In this document: positions 1 to 5,244 of the stretch, one piece after another
How positions within the stretch are numbered: the stretch's first letter is position 1
Layout of the letters: every line of letters starts with the position of its first letter
Source: Zetaproteobacteria bacterium
GTDB lineage: Bacteria; Pseudomonadota; Alphaproteobacteria; Micavibrionales; Micavibrionaceae
Assembly (NCBI GenBank): GCA_002747015.1
Contig: NVXI01000003.1
Coordinates: 118,317 to 123,560 of the forward strand
DNA length: 5,244 nucleotides
Direction: 5' to 3'
The notes under the pieces: model-generated
Told to the model about the DNA's origin: nothing
The model's input: only the letters and a program-made list of their open reading frames with translations
Databases searched by the model: none
Position numbers and translations under genes: made by a program

Positions 1-867
1 ATCCGCCGAACGCTTAGGATTTTTCCTTTATATTACTTTGTGCTCTTTCTCTATTTTTCCATTACTTATCTACTCGGAAATATGGAGCATTTAGGCGGGG
101 CAGACATAATGTATGTCCTGTATGTCGGCAATTGGGATGAATGGGCAGGGTTTGACAGGCCCTATGCTCTGCGCCACCTTTGGTCTCTCGCTGTGGAAGA
201 ACAATTCTACCTCATTTGGCCCGCATTATTCATGCTCTCTAGCAAATACAACATGGCAAAGCATGTCTGTATTTTCACAATCATTGCCACGATTATTTTC
301 CGTATTGCCTTTGTCTGGTTCGATCATCACGACTATATCTATCACATTACCATCACACGTGGAGATAGCCTACTGGTCGGAGCATTGCTCGCCATCATCA
401 TCAAGGAAAAAGGTCTTCAATATTTCAATGTATCAAAATCTCTATGCGTTTTAGCTATCGGATGCGTTATTATTGCTGCCCTTGCCTATATCAATGGCAG
501 CTTTAGCGGGAAAACGCCGCTGATTTTGATGTTCGGGCTACCTTCGCTGTTCCTTATCTTTGTGCCGATTATCCTGCTAACATTCCTACTACCCCAAAAT
601 CATATGCTCCAACGGGTTCTATCCTCGCCTGTCCTTACGTTCATGGGAAAGATAAGTTACGGCATGTACGTGTATCACTGGTTCGTGATTATACTGATTT
701 ACAATCTAAACCTTATACCCATAGAGAGTTATAGCTTTTGGCCACGACAAGCCCTATTTTTTGCCTATGCTACACCTGTAACCATTATACTTTCATGGAT
801 CAGCTACGAATATATAGAGCGCCCAATTCTGGGCTATAAGGATAAATGGGCATCCTATAATGACTAA
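1..867 (+). CDS. Acyltransferase-3 (OafA-like) membrane protein, 3' part
   Basis: Integral-membrane O-acyltransferase; the family moves acyl groups, often acetyl, onto cell-surface sugars or lipids, but the substrate here cannot be told. The reading frame is open from base 1 (IRRTLRIFPLYYF..., typical of the family after its first membrane segments), so the true start lies outside and 288 residues are visible. Numbering from base 1: the signature RHLWSLAVEEQFYLIWP at residues 58-74, an RGDSLLVGALLA segment near 120-131, the KISYGMYVYHW motif at 217-227 and YIERP at 271-275 just before the C-terminus. Hydrophobic stretches between these fit the remaining membrane helices. No SGNH esterase domain follows, so this is the short form. 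The N-terminal catalytic-region His/Arg motifs are off-window. A GTG at base 40 could be taken for a start, but family sequence continues upstream of it. The stop overlaps the convergent transporter gene by 4 bases. Confidence 0.93.
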   Translation: MRRTLRIFPLYYFVLFLYFSITYLLGNMEHLGGADIMYVLYVGNWDEWAGFDRPYALRHLWSLAVEEQFYLIWPALFMLSSKYNMAKHVCIFTIIATIIFRIAFVWFDHHDYIYHITITRGDSLLVGALLAIIIKEKGLQYFNVSKSLCVLAIGCVIIAALAYINGSFSGKTPLILMFGLPSLFLIFVPIILLTFLLPQNHMLQRVLSSPVLTFMGKISYGMYVYHWFVIILIYNLNLIPIESYSFWPRQALFFAYATPVTIILSWISYEYIERPILGYKDKWASYND

Positions 868-1805
868 ATATGCACGCCTTTAACACGGTGACGGGCATCC
901 TCGGTATAGCCTTCGGGATCAATATGAATAAGTACCTCAGCCGCAGGATATAGCTGCATAATCCCCTTCTCCAAGTCTTTTGCAATCTCGTGCGCTGACC
1001 ATAATGTCATCTCAGGGTCGACCTCAATATCAAACGACATCACATAATCCGTACCATTACGATGTGTCCGTAAATCATGCCACCCCGCAACACCATCATG
1101 AGATTCAATAATTCCAATGATTTTTGTGCGATCATCATCGGATAGCTCCCGATCCAACAGCATATCCAAAGACTTAACCGCAATTCCCCGCGCCAAATAA
1201 ACCATAAAGCCCGCAACCCCCATCGCAAACAGCCCGTCAAGCCAAAGAGGCGCGCCATAAAATCCTACCACCAAAACGATTAATGTCCCTGTATTAATCA
1301 AAATATCACTGCCGTAATGGACGCTATCGGCCTCCACCGCGAGCGATCCTGAATGCTGTAATGCGCGACGTTGAATGAATACAAGCCATCCAGACAAAAC
1401 AATAGAAACCCCCATCACATAGATCCCGATCATATGATGCGTAACCACATCCGGATGCACAATACTGTCAACCGCCTCAAATACAAGGAACACGCCACCG
1501 CCAACAATAATCGCCGATTGAAACAAGGCCGAAACAGCCTCCATCTTTCCATGCCCCCAGCGATGATCAGCATCGGCGGGTCTACGCGCATAATAAATAC
1601 TGCTCAAAGCCATAACGGACACAAGCGAATCTAAAACAGAGTCAATCAAGGATGACAAAATACTAACCGCACCGCTCTCGTAATACGCATAGCTCTTAAT
1701 AACAATCAAGATCGTGACGATAAAGATCGCCGTATACCCTGCAAAAATAGCGGATCGGGTTTTAGGGACAATATCGGCTATAGGTTTTTGTGGCGCATCG
1801 TTCAT
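864..1805 (-). CDS. fieF: Cation diffusion facilitator, FieF/YiiP-like metal exporter
   Basis: Inner-membrane divalent-cation/proton antiporter of the CDF family, expected to export Zn, Fe, Cd or similar ions from the cytoplasm. The 313 residues align almost without gaps to E. coli FieF (300 aa) as I recall it. Six membrane segments fall roughly at 16-38, 45-68, 93-112, 124-144, 165-183 and 187-205, followed by a cytoplasmic domain from about 210. Transport site A is complete: D55 and D59 in TM2, H163 and D167 in TM5 (the DD-HD set seen in Zn/Cd/Fe transporters). Site B is present as D78, H81 and H85 in PADADHRWGHGK. In the cytoplasmic site C, H243, H272, H294 and D296 are kept, but D259 stands where FieF has H248. 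It is the last gene of the bufferin cluster, 41 bases after bufC, on the same strand. No clear Shine-Dalgarno precedes the ATG. The stop overlaps the convergent acyltransferase gene, leaving no room for a terminator. Confidence 0.93.
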   Translation of the reverse strand: MNDAPQKPIADIVPKTRSAIFAGYTAIFIVTILIVIKSYAYYESGAVSILSSLIDSVLDSLVSVMALSSIYYARRPADADHRWGHGKMEAVSALFQSAIIVGGGVFLVFEAVDSIVHPDVVTHHMIGIYVMGVSIVLSGWLVFIQRRALQHSGSLAVEADSVHYGSDILINTGTLIVLVVGFYGAPLWLDGLFAMGVAGFMVYLARGIAVKSLDMLLDRELSDDDRTKIIGIIESHDGVAGWHDLRTHRNGTDYVMSFDIEVDPEMTLWSAHEIAKDLEKGIMQLYPAAEVLIHIDPEGYTEDARHRVKGVHI

Positions 1806-1846
1806 GGGCGCATTGTGAAATAAAACACACCATAAGACAACAGAGC

Positions 1847-2626
1847 TTATAAAGAAGAAAAACTCTCTAATGTCGTATGCTTTTGCAAGAAGGCCGTGAA
1901 ATCAAAAGCCGGGAACGCCGTCATAACTTTTTCAACCGCCTCACCTAGGGGTACTTTATTGTGCAGCAAGAGCAGAATCTCGAACTCATCCTCTGGTAAA
2001 GAAATGATATTCACCTCCAAATCAGGGCGCACAATAAGAAGACGGCACGTACAATTTTTCGTCAGATCAGGAGCAGGATTATTATCCGCATCCAGACAGA
2101 AAGTCCGTATTTGTTCCAATGGGTATCGTGAGGATATAAGTGTTGCAGAAGAGCGCAATTTTAAAACCACTTCACTTAACGACTCTGGCTGCACCTGCGC
2201 CAGATAATCAGGAGCAAGCGTAACATCATCGGACGCGTAATATGCAGTATTTAGCGCAAGTTCCAATGTCGCTACATCTGGTAAATAAGGCAAGGATTTT
2301 GCCGGCTCATAGGTCTTGATAAAACCATCAAACCCTTCACCATATTCATGCAAACATCCACTGGTTGGAGGGTTTCCAAAAATAAACTCTCGCGCCATAG
2401 ATTTTAAAAAATCTGCGCCAACCAAATTCTCCAGCAAAGGAAACGTCGCGCGCAGAACCTCGGACAAACTGCCCACAACATTATTGTGATACACTTTTAA
2501 CCGCTCATCCAAAGGGATATCACCTTCAGAAAATAGAGCTTTAAAATCATGCTCACAATCTTGTATCTCGCGCACAGGACGAAACATTGTCTCCTTGAAT
2601 TTCTTTTGGAATTTAGCCAGCTTCAT
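1847..2626 (-). CDS. bufC: DUF2063 bufferin maturation partner (BufC-like)
   Basis: DUF2063 proteins are the usual partner of DUF692 enzymes and are thought to bring the precursor peptide to the oxidase in the cytoplasm. The 259-residue product has the usual family length. The N-terminal DUF2063 domain covers about residues 3-125: a FQKKFKETMF opening, RLKVYHNNVVGSL at 42-54, TFPLLENLVGADF at 61-73, PPTSGCLHEYGEGF at 86-99 and LPYLPDVATLELA at 112-124. The C-terminal part, about 150-259, is less conserved and probably holds the peptide-binding fold described for such partners. I chose the ATG at 2626 because family proteins begin this way and a GGAAAG lies 7 bases upstream. A longer in-frame TTG start at 2686 would add 20 Ala/Ser-rich residues and overlap bufB by 74 bases, which is less likely. 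The chosen start overlaps the end of bufB by 14 bases, suggesting coupled translation. The family call is firm; the exact role rests on the operon. Confidence 0.9.
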   Translation of the reverse strand: MKLAKFQKKFKETMFRPVREIQDCEHDFKALFSEGDIPLDERLKVYHNNVVGSLSEVLRATFPLLENLVGADFLKSMAREFIFGNPPTSGCLHEYGEGFDGFIKTYEPAKSLPYLPDVATLELALNTAYYASDDVTLAPDYLAQVQPESLSEVVLKLRSSATLISSRYPLEQIRTFCLDADNNPAPDLTKNCTCRLLIVRPDLEVNIISLPEDEFEILLLLHNKVPLGEAVEKVMTAFPAFDFTAFLQKHTTLESFSSL

Positions 2627-3524
2627 GGCTCTGCTTTCCGGCGGTGACGCGCTCAATAATGCTGCGCGCGCGGCCTGCTTCTTCAACTAAAGTTTCTAGG
2701 GGCGGAAAATCCTGATCCCATTCGATCAAAGTCGGGATAGAGCCTATGCGCTTCACTGCATATTCATACAAGTCCCACACCTCATTGCGCACCAATTGGT
2801 TATGACTATCAACCAGAATTGTATGCTCACCTGCTTTTTTTACGATATGACCAGCCAAATGCATTTCACCCACATTCTCAGGCTTTACATTATCAATATA
2901 TTCAATCGGATCGATACCGTGATTATGGCTCTGTACATAAATATTATTGATATCCAGCAACACACCGCACCCTGTTTTCTCGCACAGCGCATTCAGCAAT
3001 TCATATTCCGGCATTTCATTATCATTAAAGGCAAGATAAGTGGACGGATTTTCAACCAGAATTTGCCGTCCGAAATAACTTTGCGTCCGGTCAATATTGT
3101 CGCATAAGCGGTTAAGCGTTTCCTGCGTATAGGGCAAGGGCAGCAAGTCATTCAAATGCGCATTACCACTTGCGCTCCATGATACATGGTCTGAAACAAC
3201 GAAAGGCTCAAATATATCAATCAACTCTTTAAACTGACGCAAGTGATTTTCATCAACGGCCTGATCCGAGCCAAGAGACAAACCAACGCCGTGCATGCTG
3301 ATCGGAAAATCCTGTCTAATTTGTTTTAAATAGTGACGATGCATACCGCCGCCAAAATAATTCTCGGGGTGAACTTCAAGCCAACCTATTTTCGGTGGCT
3401 GATCTATAATTTCTTGATAATGAGGTGATCTAAGCCCAATACCCACCGGATCATCTACTGACAAATCCGATGAGCTTAAAGGAACAGCCCGCGACACCTC
3501 ATGATTTGTAACGAGCTTATTCAT
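2613..3524 (-). CDS. bufB: MNIO-family (DUF692) peptide-modifying iron oxidase, BufB-like
   Basis: Multinuclear non-haem iron-dependent oxidase, a TIM-barrel enzyme relative of MbnB, TglH and ChrH. In bufferin systems it converts precursor cysteines to thiooxazoles using oxygen, in the cytoplasm before export. The 303 residues carry the full run of family motifs: GIGLRSPHY at 28-36, EVHPENYFGGG at 50-60, SMHGVGLSLGS at 76-86 (H78), SDHVSWS at 111-117 (D112, H113), LVENPSTYL at 156-164 (E158), LLDINNIYVQSHNHG at 189-203 (D191, N193, H200), MHLAGH at 221-226, VDSHN at 238-242 and LIEWDQDFP at 266-274. These His/Asp/Glu positions are the ones that bind the iron cluster in the family, so the enzyme should be active. 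It begins 8 bases after the bufA stop with only a weak ribosome site, suggesting coupling to bufA. About 20 N-terminal residues before the barrel look like a non-conserved extension. Confidence 0.95.
   Translation of the reverse strand: MNKLVTNHEVSRAVPLSSSDLSVDDPVGIGLRSPHYQEIIDQPPKIGWLEVHPENYFGGGMHRHYLKQIRQDFPISMHGVGLSLGSDQAVDENHLRQFKELIDIFEPFVVSDHVSWSASGNAHLNDLLPLPYTQETLNRLCDNIDRTQSYFGRQILVENPSTYLAFNDNEMPEYELLNALCEKTGCGVLLDINNIYVQSHNHGIDPIEYIDNVKPENVGEMHLAGHIVKKAGEHTILVDSHNQLVRNEVWDLYEYAVKRIGSIPTLIEWDQDFPPLETLVEEAGRARSIIERVTAGKQSHEAG
2634..2639 (-). promoter_or_regulatory. Ribosome binding site that sets the bufC start
   Basis: Minus-strand GGAAAG, 7 bases before the ATG at 2626 and inside the 3' end of bufB. 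It supports this start over the upstream in-frame TTG codons. Confidence 0.5.
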
Positions 3525-3532
3525 AGTAATAC

Positions 3533-3829
3533 TTAATGTGCTTTTTTCATGTCATCAGCTGCATGGAATTCTAGAGATCCACCAACTAATTTTTCACATG
3601 TACCTGTCGGAACAGCGACCCATTCAGCAGCAGCACCATCAACTGTGGCTTGACCAGCACAGCTATGTGACTTATCAGCAGCACCACAACCATTCATACC
3701 AGCCTTAACGACGCCATAGCATTTCTCTTGACCGTCCTTCATCGCATGCGCAGACGTTGCCATTGAACCTAGGGCAGTAACGGCAACAGCACCTGCCAAT
3801 AATGTATTTAAAGTTTTCTTAGTTGTCAT
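3533..3829 (-). CDS. bufA: Bufferin precursor (DUF2282), secreted four-Cys metal-binding peptide
   Basis: Precursor of a ribosomally made, post-translationally modified metallophore of the bufferin family. The characterised Caulobacter members bind copper and help growth under copper stress. The 98-residue product starts with a Sec signal peptide: KK at 4-5, a hydrophobic run to about residue 23, and a likely signal peptidase I cut after AHA (residue 29), leaving a mature peptide of about 69 residues. That peptide has exactly four cysteines, C37, C48, C57 and C78, in the DUF2282 pattern EKCYGV...AGMNGCG...SHSCAGQA...GTCEKLVGGSL. There is no C-terminal follower to be removed; the signal peptide takes the place of the usual leader. 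The tail after GGSL is charged and holds H89 and a final H98. It is first in the operon, behind a strong Shine-Dalgarno and a promoter candidate. Which cysteines are modified cannot be read from the sequence. Confidence 0.93.
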   Translation of the reverse strand: MTTKKTLNTLLAGAVAVTALGSMATSAHAMKDGQEKCYGVVKAGMNGCGAADKSHSCAGQATVDGAAAEWVAVPTGTCEKLVGGSLEFHAADDMKKAH

Positions 3830-3837
3830 AGCTTTAT

Positions 3838-3844
3838 TCCTTCT
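3838..3844 (-). promoter_or_regulatory. Strong ribosome binding site of bufA
   Basis: On the minus strand AGAAGGA lies 8 bases before the bufA ATG. It is the best Shine-Dalgarno in the window; bufB, fieF and ribF have weak or no visible sites. This fits a precursor made in excess over its modifying enzymes, which is an inference. Confidence 0.75.
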
Positions 3845-3863
3845 AATCCATTTGTTTAAAATT

Positions 3864-3912
3864 TAACTCTACTCATCAATATCAAGAAACAATCCTATAT
3901 ATAATAGAGTTA
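3864..3912. repeat. 8-base inverted repeat in the bufA leader
   Basis: TAACTCTA at 3864-3871 pairs exactly with TAGAGTTA at 3905-3912, separated by 33 bases. The right arm lies at the predicted 5' end of the bufA transcript and the left arm about 35 bases before the ATG, just upstream of the Shine-Dalgarno. It could form a long-looped stem in the leader or be two half-sites for a regulator. Chance is possible in such AT-rich sequence. Confidence 0.4.
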
Positions 3913-3920
3913 TTTCATCT

Positions 3921-3946
3921 TTCGCATGATATGAACACAAAGTTAC
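3921..3946 (-). promoter_or_regulatory. ECF-sigma-like promoter of the bufferin operon
   Basis: Read on the minus strand: GTAACT (-35, 3946-3941), a 16-base spacer, then CGAA followed by A (-10, 3924-3921). The AAC core of the -35, the CGxA -10 and the spacing fit ECF sigma factor promoters. It closely resembles the motif I recall for Caulobacter SigF (GTAACC, 16 bases, CGAA), which drives heavy-metal-responsive operons including bufferin genes. Transcription would begin near 3912-3916, giving a leader of roughly 85 bases before bufA. No sigma/anti-sigma gene lies in the window. Confidence 0.55.
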
Positions 3947-3954
3947 ATTACCAA
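3926..3954 (-). promoter_or_regulatory. Sigma70-like promoter reading overlapping the ECF motif
   Basis: On the minus strand TTGGTA (3954-3949), a 17-base spacer and TATCAT (3931-3926) match the housekeeping consensus at 4/6 and 5/6 positions with ideal spacing. It covers the same bases as the ECF-like motif, so the two may be alternatives or one may be chance in AT-rich DNA. If real it would start near 3918-3920. Confidence 0.4.
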
Positions 3955-3963
3955 GAAAAAAGT

Positions 3964-3996
3964 TTGAGTAACAAAATAAATTAATGTGTATATAAA
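3964..3996 (+). promoter_or_regulatory. Weak promoter candidate for ribF
   Basis: TTGAGT (3964-3969) is followed 19 bases later by TATATA, running on as TATATAAAT from 3989. The spacer is longer than ideal and the region is very AT-rich, so this is only the best of several poor candidates upstream of ribF. No FMN riboswitch or hairpin is seen in the short leader. Confidence 0.25.
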
Positions 3997-4037
3997 TAAG
4001 ACGTACAAAAATTTAAACATAGATATCCATAAATAAT

Positions 4038-4964
4038 ATGCAGCTCTTTGATACATATGAAAATATCCCCTTTAATGCACAAGGATGTGTCGTCATCATC
4101 GGAAATTTCGATGGTGTGCATAAGGGACATCAGGCGTTAATCGACAAAGCGCATATGATCGCAAAAGAATCACAAAAGCCCTTGGCTGTTCTTACATTTG
4201 AGCCACATCCAAGGCAACTTTTCCGCCCCGACGAGCCACCATGCCGTATAACTCCGCAAGACTTAAAAGCTGAACGCTTGGCTTTACACAATGTCGATTA
4301 TGTTTTTTCGCTGCCCTTTGATTGGGATTTCGCCAGCCAATCTGCACAGGATTTTATCCAAAACATCCTGATCGGCGGCCTCAATGCATCACACGTTATT
4401 GTCGGACATGATTTTAAGTTTGGCCAACTACGCAAAGGGACACCTCAAACAATCAAGGCTGCGGGGCTACCCGTTACTATCATTAGCGAGGTGAAAGGTG
4501 AAAATAACTGCAATTTATCTTCATCGCATGTGCGACAGCTCTTGCGTCATGGAAAGATTGAAGAAGCCAATGCGATCCTTGGGTGGGATTGGGAAATACG
4601 TGGTGAAATCTTTAAGGGTGATCAACGCGGACGCGAGCTGGGCTATCCTACCGCAAATATGAAGCTGAATAACATCGTCCACCCTGCCTATGGTATTTAT
4701 GCCTGCCTGACGCGTATAAAGGGTGAAAACACTTGGATGACGGGTGCCGCCAACATAGGGATAAGACCCATGTTTGAGGTTCCCATAGCGCAAGTCGAAA
4801 CATTTATTTTTGATTTTGACCAAGAAATATACGGAAAAACACTATGCGTACGCCCGATCAAACGTCTACGCAGTGAAGCAAAATTTAATTCTCTTGATAA
4901 TTTAATCATTCAAATGGAAAAAGATTGTGCACAAGCCAAAGATATCCTGAAAGATATTGTATGA
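4038..4964 (+). CDS. ribF: Bifunctional riboflavin kinase / FMN adenylyltransferase
   Basis: Makes the flavin cofactors in the cytoplasm: ATP plus riboflavin gives FMN, then ATP plus FMN gives FAD. The 308 residues are full length for the bacterial fused enzyme. The N-terminal adenylyltransferase domain (about 1-180) has GNFDGVHKGH at 22-31, TFEPHPRQLF at 53-62, VGHDFKFG at 122-129 and SSSHVRQLL at 161-169 (the SSTxVR motif). The C-terminal kinase domain has GRELGYPTAN at 198-207 (T205, N207), AYGIYAC at 217-223, GAANIGIRPMFE at 236-247 (Met where Thr is usual), the catalytic-base Glu at E254 in VETFIFDFD, IYGK at 264-267, and the closing LRSEAKFNSLDNLI segment at 277-290. The ATG has no evident Shine-Dalgarno in its AT-rich leader. 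The stop overlaps the start of the following permease gene (ATGA), so the two are probably co-transcribed. This differs from the common ribF-ileS neighbourhood. Confidence 0.96.
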   Translation: MQLFDTYENIPFNAQGCVVIIGNFDGVHKGHQALIDKAHMIAKESQKPLAVLTFEPHPRQLFRPDEPPCRITPQDLKAERLALHNVDYVFSLPFDWDFASQSAQDFIQNILIGGLNASHVIVGHDFKFGQLRKGTPQTIKAAGLPVTIISEVKGENNCNLSSSHVRQLLRHGKIEEANAILGWDWEIRGEIFKGDQRGRELGYPTANMKLNNIVHPAYGIYACLTRIKGENTWMTGAANIGIRPMFEVPIAQVETFIFDFDQEIYGKTLCVRPIKRLRSEAKFNSLDNLIIQMEKDCAQAKDILKDIV

Positions 4965-5244
4965 GTATTTTCTTATCCCTGTTTATCAATTTACTTCCCC
5001 TCTATTTTCTTATTGGATTGGGATACTTCGCTGGACGCGTATTAAAAGTAGACCGTCGAAGCCTTGGTACACTTGCTATATATATCTTCATGCCCATTGT
5101 TGTCTTTGGATTTGTGGCGGATCTCGACTTCCAACCTTCTTACATTGTACTACCGGTTTTTATCTTCATTGTAAGCACTCTGACTGGTGTTGCTTTTTTG
5201 GCTATTGGAAAAAAAGTTTATAAAGATAACCAAGCGAATTTACT
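4961..5244 (+). CDS. AEC-family (auxin efflux carrier-like) permease, N-terminal part
   Basis: N-terminal third of a membrane transporter of the AEC family, whose bacterial members move organic acids or are uncharacterised; the family usually has about 300-320 residues and about ten helices. The frame stays open to the right edge, giving 94 complete codons plus two bases. The opening LPLYFLIGLGYFAGRVLKVD (12-31), then the second helix with its conserved proline, IYIFMPIVVFGFVA (40-53), is typical of the family. A third helix runs about 62-83. The ATG overlaps the ribF stop as ATGA, with only a weak GAAAGA upstream, so translation is probably coupled to ribF. Substrate cannot be inferred, and a link to flavin metabolism is not shown. 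The same stretch also holds a longer closed reading frame in another phase (4957-5223), which has no family resemblance and is rejected. Confidence 0.8.
   Translation, partial: MSIFLSLFINLLPLYFLIGLGYFAGRVLKVDRRSLGTLAIYIFMPIVVFGFVADLDFQPSYIVLPVFIFIVSTLTGVAFLAIGKKVYKDNQANL

Follow-up and report, generated by a model that had tools for sequence, protein, structure and literature searches.

A cation diffusion facilitator gene behind a bufferin operon in one clade of Micavibrio-related bacteria: a probable tail exchange by local inversion

Results

A bufferin gene cluster followed by a FieF-like exporter gene

The stretch of DNA analysed here, referred to as the window, comprises 5,244 nucleotides (nt) of contig NVXI01000003.1 (positions 118,317 to 123,560 of the forward strand; GenBank assembly GCA_002747015.1), from a bacterium deposited as a member of the Zetaproteobacteria and placed by GTDB in the alphaproteobacterial family Micavibrionaceae. 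On its minus strand, from 3829 to 864, lie the bufferin genes bufA, bufB and bufC followed by a gene for a cation diffusion facilitator (CDF). The initial annotation had named the first three as DUF2282, DUF692 and DUF2063 genes and had placed the CDF gene behind them on the same strand at a distance of 41 bases. All of the named genes were confirmed by Pfam profiles; the order, strand and coordinates were checked, and the distance is exact (Table 1).

Table 1. Features of the window, with coordinates, strand and the basis of each call
Feature	Position	Strand	Basis
Acyltransferase, 5'-truncated	1..867	+	PF01757 61.2 bits; gene-order comparison
CDF exporter, FieF-like (Fe/Zn) kind, 313 aa	864..1805	-	PF01545 132.4 bits, PF16916 81.2 bits
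bufC-CDF spacer, 41 nt	1806..1846	-	bufC stop ends 1847, CDF ATG at 1805
bufC, DUF2063 partner, 259 aa	1847..2626	-	PF09836 67.1 bits, cut-off 27.2
bufB, MNIO maturase, 303 aa	2613..3524	-	PF05114 348.7 bits; NCBIfam MNIO_BufB 374 bits, cut-off 310
bufA, Buf1 (DUF2282) bufferin precursor, 98 aa	3533..3829	-	PF10048 79.3 bits, cut-off 22.4
ribF/bufA divergent intergenic region, within the putative inverted block	3830..4037	.	head-to-head genes
Motif GTAACT-N16-CGAA before bufA, of the sigma-F (ECF) promoter type	3921..3946	-	motif match
ribF, in the putative inverted block, not a bufferin gene	4038..4964	+	PF06574, PF01687; NCBIfam PRK05627 318.1 bits
AEC-type transporter, cut by window end, in the putative inverted block	4961..5244	+	PF03547 22.8 bits

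The three bufferin genes have the make-up of a Buf1 operon, namely a DUF2282 precursor with four Cys residues, a bufferin-type MNIO and a DUF2063 partner. The four Cys of BufA, read by eye, follow an N-terminal stretch that looks like a signal peptide by the same means (KK, a hydrophobic stretch and AHA); no NCBIfam model matched this protein. BufB scored above the curated cut-off for bufferin maturases. BufC missed the HvfC equivalog of NCBIfam (42.5 of 142 bits) and passed PF09836; its gene overlaps bufB by 14 nt and could alternatively start with the TTG at 2686.

The DD-HD transport site that had been ascribed to the CDF protein is present as D55, D59, H163 and D167. Its closest solved relatives are FieF/YiiP chains (best E-value 6.6e-56; PDB 3j1z, 5vrf, 2qfi and 3h90), which it resembles in both domains as well as in the transport site. 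Seven further residues (D78, H81, H85, H243, H272, H294 and D296) align with FieF residues, some of which we take to be metal ligands. The C-terminal domain differs from that of FieF in that Asp259 aligns with a His, presumably another ligand. By eye, position 1 of the published CDF signature is Ala46 rather than Ser or Cys, and the strict signature pattern is, therefore, unmatched. Calling the protein FieF-like, as the initial annotation did, is fair, but because it scored below the cut-offs of both NCBIfam FieF equivalogs (279.6 of 420 bits and 244.1 of 447 bits), we regard it as a FieF-like CDF and not as FieF proper. It has the features that define the FieF-like cluster of the Fe/Zn group: PF01545 together with ZT_dimer, D55 at signature position 10 and H163 in transmembrane segment V. 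In the accessible sections of the published classification (PMC1868760), Asp at signature position 10 occurs in the FieF-like cluster and in the Mn group, and His in transmembrane segment V marks the Zn and Fe/Zn groups. The characterised Fe/Zn-group members described in those sections transport Fe and also Zn, Co, Cd and Ni; copper is unnamed there.

The same four-gene order occurs in two close relatives

A BufB scan of the genome collection yielded 33 loci. The closest to the window are L001 in NORP84 (G001; BufB 94%) and L002 in NORP106 (G002; 91%), which have the same four-gene order with bufC-CDF spacers of 41 and 38 nt, respectively. A tree built from 22 RibF rows groups the window with G001 and G002 in one clade (support 99/97), beside relatives with the other gene order described below; G003 is the closest relative outside the clade, both by BufB (77%) and by its RibF path. 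For the genes compared, the dS values that separate the window from G001 or G002 are about 0.6-2 or have reached saturation. An arrangement shared by three species at this distance is not of recent origin, nor does it stem from the misassembly of a single genome. In the same comparison, the dN/dS of the CDF gene is 0.08-0.11, indicating strong purifying selection.

Gene order outside the clade points to a local inversion

The genome G091 shows on one contig the gene order that is usual among the related genomes: hldE- BTLCP+ CDF- x+ x- ileS- x- x- AEC- ribF- bufA+ bufB+ bufC+ doxX+ lspA+ DUF3035+. G003 fits this order on two contigs, each breaking off in ileS, and it is without AEC. The order in G002 is hldE- BTLCP+ acyltransferase+ CDF- bufC- bufB- bufA- ribF+ AEC+ ileS+ x183+ doxX+ lspA+ DUF3035+ (doxX identified by Pfam). 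The outer flanks of the two genomes are thus the same, and the ileS-bufC block lies in the opposite orientation. The head-to-head arrangement of ribF and bufA is found in the window and in 18 of the 33 BufB loci. With mechanically called starts of the open reading frames, the CDF gene overlaps ileS by 4 nt in G090 and follows it after 2 nt in G089; its position directly after ileS in these genomes suggests that the CDF gene formerly sat there. The doxX gene is absent from the bufferin cluster of the window; in G002 it sits behind ileS, some 6 kb from bufA.

Gene content, both gene orders and clade membership, like the spacer and the motif, come directly from the computation, and one inversion of the ileS...ribF-bufABC block would account for the order in the clade. 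The ancestor would have had two divergent operons sharing the ribF/bufA promoter region, one running from ribF through AEC, where present, and ileS to the CDF gene, and the other from bufA, bufB, bufC and doxX to lspA. A single inversion would then have exchanged the tails, bringing the CDF gene to the end of bufC and doxX behind ileS, with a junction in or beside the 41-nt spacer. The polarity of the exchange follows from doxX being the fourth gene of the Caulobacter operon and being present in the gig operons (see Discussion), which argues that the doxX order is ancestral. We consider it probable that an exporter of a housekeeping operon was captured in this way into a sigma-F bufferin operon. 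As far as seen, the exchange is confined to one clade of Micavibrio-related bacteria.

The acyltransferase gene is convergent with the CDF gene, overlaps it by 4 nt and lies outside the putative inverted block. The AEC-type transporter gene overlaps ribF by 4 nt; the PF03547 score of its truncated frame is below the cut-off of 25.7, and a homologue occupies the same place in L095 and L096. Among the mapped loci, an acyltransferase gene between CDF and BTLCP was seen only in the window's clade (window 1-867, L095:8670-9815 and L096:10009-11148).

A sigma-F-type promoter motif precedes bufA and the displaced doxX

The motif upstream of bufA (3946-3921, minus strand) begins 117 nt upstream of the start of bufA and is the sole strict GTAAC-N17-CGAA match in the window. 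It differs at one position from the Caulobacter sigma-F consensus, GTAACC-N16-CGAA; in the part of PMC3511200 available to us, the promoters of two bufferin operons were mapped by 5'RACE. We scanned up to 400 nt before bufA in 30 related loci, one of which had only 22 nt. The strict site was present in 17 of them, as compared with 0.008 expected per 400 nt from its density in the same loci, and the core is invariant in an alignment of the window with G001, G002 and G003. In G003, doxX lies 6 nt after bufC. The displaced doxX genes of G001 and G002, by comparison, are each preceded by GTAACC-N16-CGAA, with the -35 element starting 60 nt before the ATG; the chance of such a match is about 1.3-1.4e-4 per given 100-nt stretch. 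This exact site suggests that doxX acquired a promoter of its own and thereby remained within the sigma-F regulon.

In G001, a gene for an extracytoplasmic function (ECF) sigma factor is followed after 1 nt by an NrsF gene, the pair being on a different contig from the bufferin genes, and NrsF was found in 19 of the 21 genomes searched. We rejected a genome-wide sigma-F regulon drawn from the motif alone, as exact sites were no commoner than a reversed control in G001 and G002, and the case for sigma-F control made here uses only the sites before bufA and doxX. As a separate observation, an identical sigma-F-like site lies at 1501-1526 of L157 (G001) and L159 (G002), inside an efflux-type gene frame; the frame downstream resembles a heavy-metal efflux adaptor by eye, and coding conservation may explain the site.

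No promoter or terminator was predicted between bufC and the CDF gene, the place where the initial annotation had advised looking for either: a sequence scan of the spacer found no sigma-70 promoter and no terminator, and the 300 nt preceding the CDF gene contained no site resembling the sigma-F motif at fewer than three mismatches. Over the region 700-4100, the same promoter and terminator scan gave no excess of sites over shuffled sequences (6 versus 8.3 and 4 versus 3.1). Of the view that one transcript carries all four genes and couples the two functions, the transcript is plausible, given the shared strand, the short spacer free of promoter and terminator matches, the single sigma-F-type site before bufA and the retention of the spacer in three species, whereas a conserved coupling did not hold. 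Control of this bufferin-CDF operon by sigma-F is likewise a prediction.

The linkage of CDF and bufferin genes is not conserved

The initial annotation had named a count of CDF genes beside bufferin clusters as a check on the proposed coupling, and the counts did not bear out a conserved linkage. The gene after bufC in the 33 BufB loci is doxX in 12, lspA in 5, a CDF gene in 2 and some other gene in 10, the contig ending there in the remaining 4. Both CDF cases (2/33) come from the window's own clade, and the other 31 loci held no open frame matching the window's CDF. In 104 genomes from the family of G002, a relative of the CDF protein was found in 76 and BufB in 50 (E <= 1e-30 and E <= 1e-20, respectively; the former search used the window's CDF, so that more distant CDFs were outside its reach). 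The CDF relative adjoins the bufferin operon in 3 of the 50 BufB genomes, G001, G002 and G045. Gene pairs split over contigs escape such counts.

A wider comparison started from the BufA domain, which occurred in 135 of 385 genomes of an even class sample and in 102 of 398 genomes of a phylum sample; with 15 shared, this gave 222 genomes. BufA positions were usable in 217 of these, G131, G320, G424, G439 and G452 being without one; seven of the 135 class-sample genomes had no listed position, of which G217 and G284 were recovered from the phylum sample. Among the positions listed, a PF01545 domain lay within 5 kb of BufA in 3 of the 222 genomes (G002, G419 and G369), the positions being joined by eye, and further copies may be unlisted; G145 (8.7 kb) and G654 (10 kb) were near misses. 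About 1-2 genomes would be expected by chance in an unscripted estimate that assumes genomes of 3-4 Mb with some 2.2 CDF rows each. On these counts (2/33, 3/50, and 3/222 against about 1-2) we rejected a conserved linkage, and without it in related genomes a general coupling fails. Within the paper collection searched, and with the searches made there, we found no report of a bufferin operon containing a CDF gene.

G002 belongs to the window's clade, and the other two genomes with a CDF gene near BufA have other layouts. In G419, a FieF-like CDF gene lies 120 nt before bufA and the contig ends right behind bufA; a strict sigma-F site was not found at this locus. In G369, a short CDF-like gene upstream of bufA is separated from it by about 1.1 kb and one intervening gene; a MerR gene lies on its far side, which makes it more likely a unit of its own. 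At this locus (L143, 6384-8522), bufABC-doxX is preceded by a 200-aa protein, the short CDF-like protein and a MerR regulator encoded divergently. The order bufA-bufB-bufC-doxX-CDF in G045 was considered as a second operon case and rejected, as the 63-nt doxX-CDF gap holds a hairpin and T run, read by eye with no tool score.

Discussion

One interpretation of these results is that an inversion across a divergent promoter rewired a regulon. A Zn/Cd/Fe-type exporter would have moved from the housekeeping ribF-ileS operon to the sigma-F metal-stress promoter that it now shares with the bufferin, and doxX would have gained a sigma-F promoter of its own. In the most likely mode of action, metal stress would free the ECF sigma-F from the NrsF anti-sigma factor, and polymerase carrying sigma-F would transcribe bufA, bufB, bufC and the CDF gene. 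BufB and BufC would install thiooxazoles on BufA, which would be exported by Sec and bind copper in the periplasm, and the CDF protein would export Zn, Cd or Fe from the cytoplasm. The BufA chemistry and both metal specificities are predictions from sequence. One switch would thereby govern a two-compartment response, periplasmic capture of copper and removal of a different metal from the cytoplasm. The exchange has probably led to a divalent-metal exporter being made together with the bufferin under metal stress. We put the probability of this regulon rewiring at about 0.45.

Several observations weigh against the capture of the CDF gene by inversion into a sigma-F bufferin operon. Only G002 displays the putative inversion at both of its ends, as the G001 contig stops beside ileS and the window is too short. 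The clade has extra genes, x183 after ileS and the acyltransferase gene after the CDF gene, which point to further changes beyond one inversion. In G005 and G009, ileS is on the opposite strand and the layout is a different one. Of the 30 related loci, 13 have no strict site in front of bufA, and exact genome-wide sites number 6, 8 and 8 in G001, G002 and G003 as compared with 11, 17 and 7 matches to the reversed pattern. The search of 21 genomes for NrsF found none in G002 or G018. G002 has two further CDF-domain genes, and the captured CDF may, therefore, not be its main exporter. Finally, spacer identity (34/41 for window-G001, 32/41 for window-G002 and 29/41 for G001-G002) exceeds the identity of CDF fourfold sites in the first two pairs and barely in the third (67/124, 75/120 and 85/130, respectively).

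The last point bears on one alternative scenario, in which selection recruited the CDF gene to the bufferin operon or kept it there for the joint action of periplasmic capture and cytoplasmic export. The somewhat greater conservation of the spacer relative to fourfold sites, seen in two pairs out of three, would fit such selection, as would adjacency in three species at a dS of about 0.6-2 and the strong purifying selection on the CDF gene. Sigma-F in Caulobacter also answers to Cd, which FieF-like CDFs can move, according to the available portions of PMC3511200 and PMC1868760. However, CDF genes near BufA are not in excess, 3/222 against the roughly 1-2 of the unscripted estimate, the CDF gene already neighboured the other end of the block before the putative inversion, and retention alone is no proof of selection for linkage. 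We regard selected linkage as doubtful.

Another scenario is that the CDF gene was merely juxtaposed, with a weak promoter of its own inside bufC and no co-regulation with the bufferin. The CDF gene stands behind ileS in relatives, so that its former expression was probably of the housekeeping kind, and in G045 the terminator-like hairpin seen by eye separates it from bufBC-doxX. The scan of bufC and the spacer, limited to sigma-70-type sites, nevertheless gave no promoter-like site on the minus strand, the spacer is short and it has no terminator; this scenario seems unlikely to us.

The suggestion of the initial annotation that the bufferin may serve a wider or different range of metals was not supported. 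The local inversion explains the adjacency, BufA keeps its four Cys, and the sigma-F regulon of Caulobacter responds to Cu, Cd and Cr with no CDF listed in it; a CDF of the Zn/Fe/Cd type, therefore, implies no wider range for the bufferin. In the accessible text, the Caulobacter regulon is induced by Cd and Cr (PMC3511200) and also by Cu, the sigF mutant being copper-sensitive (PMC8224329). Mutants of sigF and of the bufferin genes are no more sensitive to Cd or dichromate (PMC3511200), and no CDF appears among the regulon genes listed in the sections available from the two papers. That the bufferin of the clade binds Zn, Cd or Fe instead of copper, matching a CDF whose characterised group moves Fe, Zn, Co, Cd and Ni with copper unnamed (accessible part of PMC1868760), is very improbable given the four Cys, the BufB score above the curated maturase cut-off, the positional cause of the adjacency and the description of Buf1 as a copper binder although the Caulobacter operons are induced by Cd, Cr and Cu (PMC3511200, PMC8224329 and PMC12452194, as far as available).

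The regulon rewiring proposed above can be set against known systems. In the portion of PMC3511200 at hand, the Buf1 operon CC3254-CC3257 of Caulobacter vibrioides consists of DUF2282, DUF692, DUF2063 and DoxX genes and belongs to the sigma-F regulon. The window shares the first three families in the same order and the promoter consensus with one mismatch, and its close relative G001 has a sigma/NrsF pair. It differs in the fourth gene, which is DoxX in Caulobacter and CDF in the window, doxX being displaced with a sigma-F site of its own in two relatives; a further difference is that the sigma/NrsF pair of G001 lies on another contig than its bufferin genes. The gig operons of Cupriavidus metallidurans and Legionella pneumophila likewise have DUF2282, DUF692, DUF2063 and DoxX genes, but they retain DoxX, and no CDF is described for them in the available sections of PMC5413113. 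MerC-bufferin fusions of mercury clusters also join a bufferin to the handling of another metal (PMC12452194, in part); there a MerC domain is fused, whereas here a separate CDF gene would have been placed by rearrangement. The CDF-tailed operon is a variant of the known Buf1 operon type and not a general rule. The same source, as far as available, calls Buf1 a copper binder and doxX part of the core of the Buf1 cluster; we do not take doxX in the cluster as obligatory, since lspA, not doxX, follows bufC in 5 of the 33 loci.

An attractive reading of neighbouring genes as a functional operon can thus stem from a local inversion, and the clade offers one example of a gene that would have changed regulon without leaving its flank. 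If the CDF gene is truly controlled by sigma-F, then the clade is a natural experiment on the cooperation of bufferins and cytoplasmic export. Should the sigma-F site before the displaced doxX prove real, it would speak for a functional association of DoxX with bufferins.

Other loci with bufferin-related genes

In G089, bufA lies between ribF and lspA without bufB or bufC there (L098, 5593-5979), and a BufB relative (52%) is on a separate contig (L110). An in-frame stop splits bufB in G016 (L016, 7944-8846), reflecting either decay or a sequencing error. Two contigs of metagenome-assembled genomes titled Rickettsia typhi (L022 and L027) carry relatives of BufB and BufC; these names may have been wrongly assigned. 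Six genomes have an MNIO of 40-42% identity within open frames of 550-658 aa, possibly as part of a fusion protein (G091:C1:46673, G011:C5:44824, G041:C18:86358, G008:C11:127493, G042:C22:215531 and G094:C38:80668).

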